Below, in pieces: positions 51,939 to 56,993 of a stretch of DNA of 64,000 nucleotides. The notes beneath the pieces are model-generated. The model saw only the letters and a program-made list of their open reading frames with translations. It was not told where the DNA came from and did no database searches. Each line of letters opens with the position of its first letter. The first letter of the stretch is position 1. This DNA is from Advenella sp. FME57 (GTDB lineage: Bacteria; Pseudomonadota; Gammaproteobacteria; Burkholderiales; Burkholderiaceae_B): positions 1 to 64,000 of the forward strand of contig NZ_JABUXU010000019.1 in NCBI RefSeq assembly GCF_014897675.1. Reading direction: 5' to 3'. A program made the position numbers and the translations under genes.

Positions 51939-52820
51939 TCAATAAAATTTCTTTTCCCCTTCGGGGCGGGTTTTGAAGCGCCGATGCACCCAATAATACT
52001 GGGGCGGATCGGCGCGCACCCACTCTTGCAGCTGTTGGTTGCCGAAAAGCGTGGCCTGCTCCAGGCTCATCTGGCCTGGAAAATCGTCAAAGGCAGGTAG
52101 CACCCGGGTGTGATAGTGACCGGTGGCGCTGTCCCAGCGGGTCACGATGGGAATCACGTCGGCCTTCCAGGTCCGGGCAATTTGGGCGGTTGCCGGCAGG
52201 GTCGCTGCCGGTACGCCAAAGAAAGGCACAAAGAGGGCGCCTTCGCGGCCAAAGTCCATGTCCGGCAGGTAATACACCGGCGTGCCCTGGCGCAGTTGCC
52301 GGATGAGACCGCGAATGCCCTCCTTGCGAGGGATCTGGGTCACTTTATTGAAGCGACCGCGTCCTTTGATCATCAGGGCATCAACCTGCGGATCGGATGC
52401 AGGCGTGTACATGGTGGCCGATTTGACCAGATGCATGGACAAAATAGTGGCTGCGGCGTCCAGCCCGACAAAGTGCGGGGCGAACATCAATGTGGGTCGG
52501 GAGGAGTCGATGCTGTTCTGGATGTGTTCATAACCGCTAAGGTGCACCATGCGGCGGATTTTATCTTCCGAGCCGTACCATAGCACAGCGCGATCAATCA
52601 TGGTCTGGGCCAGGGCACGAAAATGTTCCCGCAACCAGCGCTGGCGCTGAGCTGGCGTAGCCTCGGGGAAACACAATTGGAGATTGGTGCTCACGATGAA
52701 GCGGCGGCGCTTCATCAGCGTGCGCATCAAGGTAGCGCAGATACTGCCCAGGCCCAGACGCAGGCGGTCCGGTAATAGATTGATGGTGCGGAAAAGAAAA
52801 ACGAGTAATGCGGATTTCAT
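51939..52820 (-). CDS. LpxL/HtrB-family lauroyl-type acyltransferase
   Basis: Predicted lipid A secondary acyltransferase at the inner membrane. The 293 residues start with a hydrophobic segment (ALLVFLFRTINLLPDRLRL), have the catalytic HX4D motif in MFAPHFVGLDAAA and later RQGTPVYYLPDMDFG and VPFFGVPAATLP blocks of the family, and end YYWVHRRFKTRP. Chain-length preference and which LpxL-type protein it is cannot be read. The frame is open to 53057, but the ATG at 52820 fits the family. Upstream of it begins the SMR cassette. Confidence 0.9.
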   Translation of the reverse strand: MKSALLVFLFRTINLLPDRLRLGLGSICATLMRTLMKRRRFIVSTNLQLCFPEATPAQRQRWLREHFRALAQTMIDRAVLWYGSEDKIRRMVHLSGYEHIQNSIDSSRPTLMFAPHFVGLDAAATILSMHLVKSATMYTPASDPQVDALMIKGRGRFNKVTQIPRKEGIRGLIRQLRQGTPVYYLPDMDFGREGALFVPFFGVPAATLPATAQIARTWKADVIPIVTRWDSATGHYHTRVLPAFDDFPGQMSLEQATLFGNQQLQEWVRADPPQYYWVHRRFKTRPEGEKKFY

Positions 52821-53026
52821 AATGTTTGAAGATGAGCGAAATGCGTGCTGACAATATGTGCTGGCAGTGCGCCGTGACAAGCACGTCGCTGGCTGCCGGC
52901 CTGGCGGCATTGCCGGCAGACGGGTGCGATCCTGAATTTTTTCGATTGTAATGGAGAAAAGGATGGCATGGTCCAGGCGGTTGCCTTGACGAGCAAGACG
53001 GGTACACTGGCAAAAAACACTATATA

Positions 53027-53088
53027 TGCATGCGCAAACAAATATATTGACGCGCATCTTTGTTTCTTATAATATGCATGCACATGCA
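53027..53088. promoter_or_regulatory. MarR-type operator region of the SMR cassette
   Basis: A perfect palindrome TGCATG-CA-CATGCA lies at 53075-53088, directly after a TATAAT (53068-53073) with TTGACG at 53047. A second, half-conserved copy (TGCATG-CG-CAAACA) lies at 53027-53040, 48 bases away. The same palindrome occurs in the marR promoter at 54557, so the MarR protein encoded in the cassette is the probable ligand-controlled repressor. Confidence 0.65.
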
Positions 53089-53165
53089 AACAATAAATAA
53101 ATGAAATCTGATGATCTCCATTGCCTTGCATGAAAGCAAACTGTTGAACACTTTATAAAGGAAAT

Positions 53166-53489
53166 ATGATGAGCTGGTTATATCTTGGAATCGCCGTGGT
53201 CTTTGAGGTCGCGGTCGCAATATCGGCAGGCAATGCCAAGGGATTCACCCGGGCAGGGTGGACGATCGCCACCCTTGTCAGCGGAGTTATTGCCACTTAT
53301 TTTCTCAGCCTTGCGCTGCTGACCTTCGATGTGGGCATTGGCTACGCAATCTGGACCTCGGTCGCAGGCGTAGGCATCGTTATTCTGGGCGCACTGTTCT
53401 TTGGGCAGCGACTGAACTGGAACAAGGTCCTCGGGATTGTTTTGGTCATCGGAGGCGTTGTCGGTTTGCAGCTCAGTGGTGCGGCGTAA
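53166..53489 (+). CDS. small multidrug resistance (SMR) family subunit 1
   Basis: A 107-residue, four-helix membrane protein of the SMR family, which exports cations by proton antiport. The essential membrane Glu is at residue 14 in VVFEVAVAISAGNAKGF; the GIGYAIWTSVAGVGIVILGALFFG block of helix 3 and the final helix are present. Gdx-type guanidinium exporters have Trp three residues after that Glu; here it is Val. With the next gene it forms a pair, as in heterodimeric SMR transporters. AAAGGA precedes the ATG. Confidence 0.9.
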   Translation: MMSWLYLGIAVVFEVAVAISAGNAKGFTRAGWTIATLVSGVIATYFLSLALLTFDVGIGYAIWTSVAGVGIVILGALFFGQRLNWNKVLGIVLVIGGVVGLQLSGAA

Positions 53490-53552
53490 GGCGTTGGCAG
53501 TCATTGACAGATATTGGTTAATTTAATTTATATAACTTTGAAGGAAATAGAT

Positions 53553-53942
53553 ATGTTGACAACAAACAAAAAAAATCCGGGTAGTGGGCAGGCGTGGATG
53601 ATGTTGCTGCTGGCCGGTGCGTTCGAAATCGGTTATGCGCTCAGTGTTGGTGGGAGTCAAGCCTTTACCGTGTTGAGCTGGTCGCTTGCCGCCATCGTTT
53701 TCTTTTTGCTCACGCTGTATTTTCTCAGCGCCGCCCTGAGGACGATTGACGTGGGGATCGGCTACGCAGTCTGGGCGGGTATTGGCGCGGTCGGCGCGGC
53801 TGCTTTTGGCAGCGTCCTGCTTGATCAGCCACTGACGGCGGTGCAGGTATTTTGGCTGGTCGTTATCATCGCAGGGGTCGTCTGGCTCAAACTGGCCGAT
53901 AGCGTCAAACTGCAGGCAGAGCAAAGCAGCGAGCCATTCTGA
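53553..53942 (+). CDS. small multidrug resistance (SMR) family subunit 2
   Basis: A 129-residue SMR protein with a longer, polar N-terminus (about 15 residues) and a charged C-terminal tail. The key Glu is in AGAFEIGYALSVGG, with Tyr at the Gdx Trp position. Helix 3 reads GIGYAVWAGIGAVGAAAFG, close to SugE/Gdx. The start at 53553 has AAGGAAA eight bases upstream. It follows subunit 1 after 63 bases. The unequal tails suggest an asymmetric heterodimer; substrate unknown. Confidence 0.9.
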   Translation: MLTTNKKNPGSGQAWMMLLLAGAFEIGYALSVGGSQAFTVLSWSLAAIVFFLLTLYFLSAALRTIDVGIGYAVWAGIGAVGAAAFGSVLLDQPLTAVQVFWLVVIIAGVVWLKLADSVKLQAEQSSEPF

Positions 53943-53997
53943 GCAGAGGTTTGTTGCGGTGCTGAAAAATACCGACAGGTATATCCAGGAGGAAAAA

Positions 53998-54078
53998 ATG
54001 ATCTTTTTATCCAATGACAGCTTCGGTTTCTCATGCGGTAAAAGAGGCAAGAACGCGGGTGGCTCCGATGGCCGTTGA
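53998..54078 (+). CDS. 26-codon frame with a strong ribosome-binding site overlapping the deaminase start
   Basis: CCAGGAGG lies at ideal distance before an ATG at 53998, which opens a 26-codon frame (MIFLSNDSFGFSCG...) ending in TGA at 54076. It is one base out of phase with the deaminase. Its stop overlaps an in-frame deaminase ATG at 54068, so it may be a coupling leader peptide. Alternatively a one-base slip in the T5 run at 54004-54008 hides the true deaminase start. Confidence 0.4.
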   Translation: MIFLSNDSFGFSCGKRGKNAGGSDGR

Positions 54079-54553
54079 TCTTGCGAAACGTCTGCCGCCG
54101 CTTATGCAGGAGGTCGTCGCCTTCTCCATGGAACATGTCCATCAAGGTGGTATTCCATTTGCCGCATTTGTGGTCGATGGCGGTGGCACAGTCCTGGGGC
54201 GCGGGGTCAATCGCGTATGCGAGTGTCGTGATCCGACCGCGCATGCCGAGGTTCAGGCCATACGGGATGCATGCCGTGCCCACGGTATTGGCCGTTTGCA
54301 CGGGGCAACGCTTTTGGCTTCAGGAGAGCCTTGTGCGATGTGTTATATGAGTGCACTCTATGCGGGTATCACGCAGATATGCTTTGCTGTTGATCGGGAC
54401 GAAGCGGCAGCCAATGGCTTTGACTATCGTGGCAGCTACACGGTTTTGGCCAGCGATCCCATTGACTGGCATTCGCCCGTGGTCCGAAAACTGCCTGTGC
54501 CCGAAGGTTTGCAGCCGTTTCTGGCGTTTCGCGCCCGGTCTGCCTCGGCTTGA
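54014..54553 (+). CDS. nucleoside/guanine-type deaminase (zinc cytidine-deaminase fold)
   Basis: A zinc hydrolase predicted to deaminate a nucleobase or similar compound. The 179 residues carry the metal motifs of the family: TAHAEVQAI (His ligand and proton-shuttle Glu) and GEPCAMCYMSAL (two Cys ligands). The C-terminus (FDYRGSYTVLASDP and so on) resembles guanine-deaminase/TadA-like relatives, but it is not TadA by context. Start uncertain: 54014 lacks a ribosome-binding site at normal distance, 54068 is possible, and the strong site serves a frame one base off. It lies behind the SMR pair, so its substrate or product may be what the pair exports. Confidence 0.8.
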   Translation: MTASVSHAVKEARTRVAPMAVDLAKRLPPLMQEVVAFSMEHVHQGGIPFAAFVVDGGGTVLGRGVNRVCECRDPTAHAEVQAIRDACRAHGIGRLHGATLLASGEPCAMCYMSALYAGITQICFAVDRDEAAANGFDYRGSYTVLASDPIDWHSPVVRKLPVPEGLQPFLAFRARSASA

Positions 54554-54556
54554 TTT

Positions 54557-54570
54557 TGCATGGACATGCA
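54557..54570. promoter_or_regulatory. MarR-type operator in the marR promoter
   Basis: TGCATG-GA-CATGCA is a perfect palindrome equal in half-sites and spacing to the one at 53075. It lies between a TTGATT (54550) and a -10-like TGATAA (54573), where a bound repressor would block RNA polymerase. It begins four bases after the deaminase stop. Confidence 0.65.
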
Positions 54571-54616
54571 TATGATAAGATATTTTGCTGAACGATTAAG
54601 GACGTGGTGAACTTCG

Positions 54617-55027
54617 ATGTCAAAGAAAAGTGATACATGGCTTAAGCTGATTCAGGTGATCGCCAATGTCGAGGCCAGGCTTGGCGCGGTGCTGCAGGCA
54701 AAGCATGGGCTTGGTCTTTCAGAGTATCGTGCACTTGAGGTATTGGCGCGTTCGCCCAACGCCGAATTGCGCATGCAGGAGCTTGCGTCGCATCTGCGCC
54801 TGAACCAGAGTTCGGTTTCGCGGATGGCTGAGCGTCTGGAACGCGTCGGGTTTACCATTCGCGATCTGTGCCCGGACGACAAACGAGGGGTTTATACAGT
54901 GATCACCGATAAAGGGCGGGCGCATCTGGATGGCGCGCGAGTCGATTACGAAAATGCGCTGGATGAAGCAGTCAAAGAATGCGGGTGTGAAAAGCTGCTG
55001 CTCATGAAATTTATCAATGCAGGATAG
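54617..55027 (+). CDS. MarR-family transcriptional regulator
   Basis: A 136-residue winged-helix dimeric regulator. Seen: a dimerisation helix (IQVIANVEARLGAVLQ), LSEYRALEVLARSP, the recognition region MQELASHLRLNQSSVSRMAERLERVGF and the wing RDLCPDDKRGVYTVITDKG. It is the last gene of the SMR cassette, and its promoter and the SMR promoter share a perfect palindrome, so it probably represses both until a ligand, perhaps the SMR substrate, binds. Confidence 0.92.
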   Translation: MSKKSDTWLKLIQVIANVEARLGAVLQAKHGLGLSEYRALEVLARSPNAELRMQELASHLRLNQSSVSRMAERLERVGFTIRDLCPDDKRGVYTVITDKGRAHLDGARVDYENALDEAVKECGCEKLLLMKFINAG

Positions 55028-55826: not shown

Positions 55827-56993
55827 ATGGCCCACAACGATTTTCTCTTTACTTCCGAATCCGTTTCCGAAGGTCACCCCGACAAGGTTGCTGACCAGAT
55901 TTCCGACGCCATTCTTGATGCGCTGCTCGAGCAGGACCCCCAGTCCCGCGTAGCCGCCGAAACCCTGTGCAATACCGGCCTGGTTGTCTTGGCCGGAGAA
56001 ATCAGCACCAAAGCCAACATCGACTATATTCAGATCGCGCGCGATACGATCAAGCGCATTGGCTATGACAATACCGAGTATGGTATTGACTACAAGGGCT
56101 GCGCAGTACTGGTCGCCTACGACAAGCAGTCTCCCGACATTGCCCAGGGTGTTGATCGCAGCGAAGAAGATATTCTGAATCAGGGCGCTGGGGATCAGGG
56201 CCTGATGTTTGGTTTCGCATGCGACGAAACGCCGGATCTCATGCCTGCGCCCATCTGGTATGCCCACCGTCTGGTGCAGCGCCAGAGCGAATTGCGCAAG
56301 GACGGCCGGCTGCCCTGGCTGCGTCCCGATGCCAAATCCCAGGTCACGTTCCGGTATGTCGATGGCAAGCCGGTAGAGGTCCATACCGTTGTGCTCTCTA
56401 CCCAGCATGCCCCGGAGATCTCGCAGGACGCGATCCGCGAAGCGGTCATCGAAGACATCATCAAGCCGACTTTCGCCGAAGGCTTGATCACGGCCGATAC
56501 CAAGTTTCTGATCAACCCGACGGGCAAGTTCATTATTGGCGGCCCTCAGGGTGATTGCGGCCTGACCGGACGCAAGATCATTGTCGATACCTATGGCGGT
56601 GCCTGCCCGCACGGCGGTGGCGCGTTTTCAGGCAAGGATCCTTCCAAGGTTGACCGTTCTGCTGCCTATGCGGCACGTTATGTGGCCAAGAATATTGTTG
56701 CTGCGGGCCTGGCGCGCCAGTGCCAGATCCAGGTCAGCTACGCCATCGGTGTGGCCGAGCCCATCAATATCACCGTGTACACGGAAGGCACCGGCGTCAT
56801 CCCTGACGACGACATTGCCAAACTGGTACGCGAGCATTTTGACCTGCGTCCGCGCGGTATTGTGCAGATGCTGGATCTGCTGCGTCCGATCTATACCAAA
56901 TCTGCCGCCTATGGGCACTTTGGCCGCTCGGAGCCCGAGTTCAGCTGGGAAGCGCTGGACAAGGCGGCGGTTCTGAAAAAAGCCATCGCTTAA
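55827..56993 (+). CDS. metK: S-adenosylmethionine synthetase
   Basis: Makes S-adenosylmethionine from methionine and ATP. The 388 residues start [23 protein letters not shown] (ATP/metal site), and contain [34 protein letters not shown]... and the phosphate-binding [22 protein letters not shown]. The in-frame upstream start at 55767 lacks family sequence. It is followed by ahcY with a riboswitch between, and metF further on, so the activated-methyl cycle is clustered here. Confidence 0.97.

Follow-up and report, generated by a model that had tools for sequence, protein, structure and literature searches.

Paired exporters of the small multidrug resistance (SMR) family, among them YkkCD, EbrAB and MdtIJ (PMC9574504, PMC2716321), are the products of adjacent genes with opposite arginine and lysine (Arg/Lys) biases and a central Glu/Tyr/Trp set. 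Such pairs occur among both the Gdx and the Qac kinds, and the opposite charge bias is the mark of fixed antiparallel heterodimers (PMC9574504, a review). The DNA studied here, a 64,000-nucleotide stretch of Advenella sp. FME57 (contig NZ_JABUXU010000019.1, positions 1 to 64,000; hereafter the window), carries a cassette of two SMR genes, a zinc deaminase gene and a marR gene that resembles these systems in gene adjacency, charge bias and central residues. It differs from them in that its SMR proteins score under every listed model cut-off and have Val and Tyr at the position of the Gdx Trp, and in their association with the deaminase, with a FrnE-like protein and a MarR operator, and in many loci with a biosynthetic cluster. 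From gene content and the distribution of regulatory sites we consider it probable that the cassette is a self-resistance and export module of a small-molecule cluster, carried here without the biosynthetic genes. The host looks like a non-producer that has retained immunity, and the stand-alone cassette probably lets a bacterium expel and defuse a compound made by others. Four scattered gene names thereby become a testable immunity system common to proteobacteria and actinomycetes, and the retention of the module by non-producers suggests that the compound matters in real communities.

The gene order in the window is lpxL-type, SMR1, SMR2, deaminase, marR, metK, and the features are as follows, the flanking genes last.

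53027..53040, plus strand: putative operator O1, TGCATGCGCAAACA, two mismatches, a decayed or weak copy upstream of the -35 hexamer
53047..53075, plus strand: sigma-70-type promoter match TTGACG-N17-TAATAT, between O1 and O2
53075..53088, plus strand: putative operator O2, TGCATGCACATGCA, exact, at the end of the -10 hexamer
53166..53489, plus strand: SMR1, small multidrug resistance subunit (PF00893, E 2.6e-19); loops 1 and 3 predicted to be inside from the charge bias
53553..53942, plus strand: SMR2, its partner subunit (PF00893, E 9.9e-19); charge bias predicts both ends inside
54014..54553, plus strand: zinc deaminase of the guanine-deaminase/TadA superfamily (PF00383, E 2.4e-17); the real start may be 54068
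54557..54570, plus strand: putative operator O3 in the marR promoter region, TGCATGGACATGCA, exact
54617..55027, plus strand: MarR-family regulator (PF12802, E 6.1e-11), a predicted repressor at O1 to O3
51939-53057, minus strand: open reading frame of the lpxL-type gene, to which orthologues align at 51942-52820
ATG near 55827: metK

Recurrence of the cassette

A profile search of genome contigs with a seven-sequence deaminase alignment supplied 80 loci, the best of 541 relatives, and six loci came from other searches; with L037 (which has the same cluster genes as L069) and two same-genus loci set aside, 86 loci remained. The deaminase was accompanied by at least two other cassette genes in 74 of the 86, and among these SMR1 was present in 72, SMR2 in 71, a DsbA-like gene in 67 and MarR in 61; one or both SMR genes were not found in the DNA covered at L061, L076, L101 and L106. 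By tblastn mapping, almost every stand-alone locus of proteobacteria has the order SMR1-SMR2-deaminase, as a rule preceded by DsbA and followed by MarR. The cassette, usually with its FrnE/DsbA-like gene, therefore recurs in proteobacteria and actinomycetes, and the genome under study has no close DsbA (best match 28%). Nine outgroup loci, with deaminases 38-43% identical, gave no SMR or MarR match; the exceptions to their lack of cassette or cluster relatives were a 52-bit DsbA-like match in L109 and a 30% dehydrogenase match in L110. A preliminary description of this DNA, made from its letters alone, had proposed a self-regulated cassette with a common operator, and the recurrence of both neighbourhood and palindrome across phyla bears this out; the four genes between the lpxL-type gene and metK and the palindromes at 53075 and 54557 all lie where it had placed them.

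A role in anti-phage defence was considered and set aside: PADLOC had no match to the deaminase or to either SMR protein, and its Csa3 matches to MarR were weak.

The palindrome and the MarR regulator

Exact copies of TGCATG-N2-CATGCA occur at three places in the 4,738,585-base genome, two of which are O2 and O3, so that the expectation of a palindrome not common genome-wide held for the exact form. The third (C20:104724) sits in a 440-residue open reading frame resembling, by eye, a TRAP transporter subunit (L001) and looks like chance. With up to one mismatch there were 17 places, of which the cassette and C20 were those inspected, as against 3 for a reversed control pattern, and thus only the exact palindrome is selective in this genome.

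Operators were counted in the 72 loci (0.96 Mb) holding at least three of DsbA, SMR1, SMR2 and MarR, a site being taken as upstream if it lay at most 420 bp before a cassette or cluster gene. Of 115 sites with up to one mismatch 114 were upstream, covering 62 of the 72 loci, and every one of the 30 exact sites, spread over 21 loci, was upstream. Five unrelated control palindromes of the same form and tolerance gave nine sites together, one of them upstream (ACGTAC 0, TGACTG 1, GTCATG 6, TGCTAG 0, and GATGCA 2 with the one upstream); a sixth, CATGCA, built of the same half-sites, gave 11 sites, all upstream and 11 of 11 overlapping operators. Thirteen loci without SMR genes held two sites, one of them before the MarR gene of L076. 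In further support of the pairing of regulator and site, L048 and L051, two related loci that lack MarR, show no upstream site even when three mismatches are allowed. As the sites fall almost without exception before cassette or cluster genes, the palindrome is very probably the MarR operator. Ten of the sites precede the adenylation gene of the cluster described below, which ties the regulon to the cluster product.

The half-conserved copy claimed at 53027 (O1) is present and its position is kept in two same-genus genomes, with two and one mismatches, but with its own two mismatches it is alone at chance level (8 matches at up to two mismatches in the window, 8.0 expected). Paired sites are common in relatives, spaced mostly 44-50 bp in proteobacteria and 67-69 bp in actinomycetes, and it is this position, in congeners and in relatives, that supports O1 as a real site. 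The same applies to TTGACG-N17-TAATAT, whose reading as a promoter is supported by its place between two operators and not by the promoter scan, which overall gave 2 matches against 2.0 expected and is not above chance.

The window regulator has a winged-helix MarR domain, its nearest solved structure is 3zpl, and its recognition-helix residues are near invariant in relatives (Q64 in 60/61 rows, S65 and R69 in 61/61), MarR being divergent in halomonads, Vibrio and many Streptomyces. As in other MarR-family repressors the palindromes stand before the regulator's own gene and before the exporter; unlike these, 3zpl being the nearest, the site is TGCATG-N2-CATGCA and is also found before a biosynthetic gene in cluster-positive genomes. 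A conserved palindrome in its own and its target promoters is what is expected of a MarR autorepressor, the role predicted here, and the view that MarR, the operators and a putative SMR heterodimer form one unit is strongly supported by these comparisons. The wing residue Cys85 of MarR is invariant (61/61 rows) and, given that the cassette often has a FrnE-like gene, may point to an inducer that reacts with thiols, although such a Cys is present in the relative 3zpl as well.

Association with an apparent biosynthetic cluster

The cassette lies within an apparent biosynthetic cluster in 26 of the 74 loci. At least four of seven cluster genes, DUF6253 counted, were found in 25 loci, one to three in 13 and none in 36. 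Among the 13 partial loci L038 has all cluster genes in a longer fetch; in eight Streptomyces loci the flanking DNA ends too early, and in L065 the contig does. L062 and L071 resemble remnants, and the match in L055, weak (24%) and on the opposite strand, was discounted. The cluster encodes an adenylation enzyme, a carrier protein, an ectoine-synthase-like cupin, a flavoenzyme of the acyl-CoA-dehydrogenase type, a transglutaminase domain and an EutA/Amdase-like enzyme. The cupin resembles orphan ectoine synthases in exceeding the ectoine synthase cut-off (141 bits against 128), and the flavoenzyme resembles prolyl-carrier-protein dehydrogenases in scoring best with the PigA and RedW models, though under their cut-offs (329 of 500 and 305 of 650). 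The EutA/Amdase-like enzyme is under the EutA cut-off and over that of Pfam Amdase; its presence and that of the transglutaminase fold set the cluster apart from the PigA/RedW and orphan ectoine synthase systems. The adenylation code, read by motif position rather than by a specificity predictor, is DLLQ-[VIL]-T-[VIL]-D-S, identical in 23 of the 26 loci from Vibrio to Streptomyces. Representative stretches of the apparent cluster common to these two genera are L069 1364-8256 and L119 14663-19930. The cassette is thus found within the cluster and sharing its regulatory sites, as would be expected of a self-resistance module. Neither cassette nor cluster was found described in the literature searched (open-licence PMC articles, by titles and the openings of abstracts, the largest result lists seen in part); the cassette points to a natural-product cluster not found described there.

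EctC can poorly cyclise glutamine to the cyclic amidine ADPC (PMC5924519), and the function of orphan ectoine synthases is called not yet clear in PMC6344544. A more specific proposal, which we regard as rather unlikely, is that the cluster product is a toxic cyclic amidine derived from glutamine, that the SMR pair is a new amidinium exporter subtype and that the deaminase detoxifies the compound. Glutamine would be loaded on the carrier protein and closed by the cupin to a 5-aminopyrroline ring, the flavoenzyme would oxidise the ring towards 5-aminopyrrole, and the transglutaminase-like enzyme would release the product; the deaminase would turn the ring C-NH2 into a harmless lactam, and immune non-producers, among them the host studied here, would carry the cassette alone. 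The cluster offers a possible role for orphan ectoine synthases and, should the amidine proposal be true, a function for one group of them; the cassette likewise suggests what class of natural substrate a subtype of paired SMR exporters may have.

The deaminase and its loss

The second Asp of the GFDD motif of guanine deaminase is a substrate contact. The nearest solved structures to the cassette deaminase are guanine deaminases (1wkq and 1tiy, E 1.1e-18), with which it shares the superfamily and the HAE and PCxxC zinc motifs, intact in 74/74 cassette or cluster rows. It differs from them in having Tyr138 in place of that Asp (74/74 rows) and Trp152 in place of an Arg (72/74 rows), and in a context with no purine theme. 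Trp152 aligns with a gap in the outgroup; Tyr138 is present in 9/9 outgroup deaminases as well and so marks a wider subfamily rather than the cassette. Cluster-borne and stand-alone deaminases have the same pocket-side residues, Tyr138 and Trp152, and this suggests one common substrate other than guanine. The nucleobase-like substrate of the preliminary description accordingly keeps the weak support of the relationship to guanine deaminase, but the pocket-side differences speak against it, and the amino-acid-activating cluster around the cassette elsewhere points to a natural product rather than a nucleobase.

The open reading frame can begin at 54014, and five of six relatives in the first deaminase alignment, which L037 entered from its match only, begin at or near Met19 (ATG 54068). 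A 26-codon open reading frame with a strong ribosome site, AGGAGG, lies at 53998-54078 and ends over this likely start, out of frame. The deaminase of the window may be translated weakly or by coupling, which would fit its loss in two congeners. An orphan deaminase with the zinc His changed to Arg, and no cassette around it, occurs on a plasmid of Rhizobium sp. TCK (L036 4001-4471).

SMR1 was found at E 1e-25 or better in three of ten same-genus genomes. Two of these (G001 and G007) have SMR1, SMR2 and MarR 93-98% identical to those of the window and keep all three operator positions, but all that is left of the deaminase is a C-terminal piece, 44 residues long in the first and 41 in the second (L120 3020-3151 and L121 3053-3175). 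In the seven same-genus genomes without the cassette dapF adjoins lpxL (7/7), and in six of the seven the flanking DNA retrieved extends to metK (in L141 it was not reached), which makes the cassette a variable element between lpxL and metK. Of 399 genomes drawn from the order, the genome under study was the one whose deaminase match reached E 1e-38; in another draw G010, of the same family, had a match at E 6e-69. Plasmid-borne copies were found among relatives, and these together with the presence of the cassette in three of ten same-genus genomes are evidence of its mobility. Of 20 plasmid records collected by SMR2 (at least 60% identity), five (two Shinella, Ciceribacter, Leisingera and S. 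xanthii) have the SMR pair with no deaminase next to it, and all 20 have a MarR match. Four of the five were opened: no deaminase match was found in 10-18 kb, and three have sites with up to one mismatch, the fourth (L156) a two-mismatch site only. The expectation that relatives have the deaminase in the same neighbourhood thus held in part: it is a remnant in two of three same-genus carriers and missing in a quarter of these plasmid records. Judged by these losses the core is MarR and the SMR pair, a minimal unit, to which the deaminase and DsbA are accessory.

These observations bear on the view that the locus is a deaminase-centred salvage or catabolic operon, for guanine or nucleobase-analogue metabolism, that exports a product. 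The guanine deaminases as nearest solved structures and the unbroken conservation of the zinc motifs are in keeping with it; the residues at positions 138 and 152 are not, the deaminase is deleted while the SMR pair, MarR and operators stay, and the recurring gene set that was mapped includes no purine gene, though no search aimed at purine genes was made. We regard such an operon as improbable.

Stand-alone copies and the probable loss of biosynthesis

At a threshold of E 1e-70 the adenylation enzyme was found in 0 of 29 stand-alone genomes (28 of those from the 36 loci without cluster genes, and L055) as compared to 5 of 5 cluster controls, and L062 and L071 had none at this threshold; an EutA-like gene was found in 1/29, 5/5 and 2/2, respectively. 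The genome under study has no adenylation match at E 1e-30, and its dehydrogenases are ordinary-looking, with at most 36% identity apart from one short match of 37%. Its EctC-like gene was considered as a cluster part and set aside: this sole match lies between ectB- and ectD-like genes, identified by eye, in an ordinary ectoine operon.

In a quick deaminase tree of 86 sequences, with SH-aLRT support only, 33 of the 83 inner branches are open; 14 label changes between cluster and cassette are required, eight Streptomyces rows labelled cassette being probably cluster members cut by flank. In the halomonads L066 (Modicisalibacter coralii), with the full cluster, groups with stand-alone L059 and L060 (support 96), and in the relatives L057, L059, L060, L063 and L067, whose MarR is of the same divergent kind as that of L066, the cassette stands alone. 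L062 keeps one cluster gene, the EutA-like, and L071 has a shortened cluster. On a plasmid of Leisingera thetidis (L156 7697-7840) a 48-residue match of 42% identity to the EutA-like gene stands before marR-SMR1-SMR2, apparently a cluster fossil. The halomonad loci, L062, L071 and L156 favour a loss of biosynthesis with the cassette retained.

The same parts could have had the opposite history, namely that of a general efflux and detoxification cassette for environmental cationic or amine compounds which clusters recruited. The stand-alone form is frequent among the loci sampled (36 of the 74 are without a cluster gene in the DNA covered) and is the predominant one in the alpha/beta section of the tree, which holds the window, and a minimal MarR-SMR1-SMR2 exists alone, all as this history would have it. 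The halomonad loci and the three remnants, however, point to cluster loss with the cassette left behind, and the operator before the adenylation gene ties the regulon to the product; we therefore find recruitment of a general cassette doubtful.

Several points weigh against the self-resistance module as we have proposed it. Since the deaminase served as bait for the 80 chromosomal loci, these cannot show how often an SMR pair lacks it. Ten of the 72 cassette loci have no upstream site at up to one mismatch: L048 and L051 have no MarR, L065 is cut, L058, L073, L097, L092 and L105 have two-mismatch sites, and L083 and L101 three-mismatch sites only, the MarR proteins of the Actinopolyspora loci (L083, L092, L105) and of L101 being divergent. 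MarR was not found in the DNA covered at 13 of the 74 loci, ten of which nevertheless have sites (eight Streptomyces and L093, these perhaps cut by flank, and L108). The occurrence of Tyr138 outside the cassette slightly lowered our confidence in an immunity module. In five large genomes, of the 36 in which the adenylation enzyme was looked for, there were 45-128 candidates and no more than 42 were scored, and stand-alone L048 has an EutA-like homologue of 29% identity. As the deaminase tree has many open forks, it is only among the halomonads and through remnants that the direction of cluster loss and the number of such events can be read, and in the clade of the window the cassette may have come first. 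Finally, the cluster product could be a harmless metabolite rather than a toxin, and the cassette would then serve plain export.

If the cassette is a self-resistance module, MarR dimers would bind the TGCATG-N2-CATGCA sites that flank the SMR1 promoter and lie in the marR promoter, and would repress both. The compound would enter, and it or a derivative would release MarR. SMR1 and SMR2, whose charge biases are opposite, would assemble as a fixed antiparallel heterodimer and, as is usual for SMR exporters and in keeping with the core Glu, Tyr and Trp that both keep, would export the compound in exchange for protons. The deaminase, with its zinc motifs intact, would strip an amino group from the compound, and in most relatives the FrnE-like DsbA protein, not found in the genome under study, would act in the same response.

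The SMR exporter pair

A Trp three residues after the central Glu marks the Gdx guanidinium exporter subtype. Exporter 6wk5 is the nearest solved structure to both subunits, and at its Trp position SMR1 has Val and SMR2 Tyr, so that neither SMR protein carries the guanidinium-exporter Trp, as the preliminary description had it; in relatives Val is found in 62/63 SMR1 rows and Tyr in 65/65 SMR2 rows. For these comparisons rows above 110 bits only were used, and the EmrE layout served to place the membrane segments; four of the SMR2 rows extend beyond a stop at their end. The core Glu, Tyr and Trp are kept in 63/63 SMR1 and 65/65 SMR2 rows. Mean Arg+Lys counts are 0.4 on the N-terminus/loop 2/C-terminus side and 4.9 on the loop 1/loop 3 side of SMR1 (60/63 rows, with two opposite and one tie), as compared to 6.1 and 0.5, respectively, for SMR2 (65/65 rows). 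The two adjacent PF00893 genes thus form an SMR pair in which the biases are opposite, and the products likely act as one exporter, as had been suggested for this unequal pair, and probably as a fixed antiparallel heterodimer.

That the pair is an ordinary guanidinium or quaternary-amine SMR operon of the known Gdx or Qac kinds, with unrelated neighbours, could be argued from 6wk5 and from the existence of paired SMRs among those kinds (PMC9574504). Against this, both proteins are far under the cut-off of every SMR model listed in NCBIfam (55.8 and 60.5 bits for the SugE model, whose curated cut-off is 126 bits), almost every SMR1 row has Val, and every SMR2 row Tyr, where Gdx exporters have Trp, and the neighbours recur across phyla with a common operator; we hold an ordinary operon of this sort to be highly improbable. 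Guanidine metabolism was also considered and set aside, since a search of the literature that took in guanidine carboxylase listed nothing on the cassette; the loci were not searched for that enzyme. In four actinomycete loci (L081, L098, L103 and L104) the SMR genes stand in reverse order and their products are 37-46% like the seed proteins.

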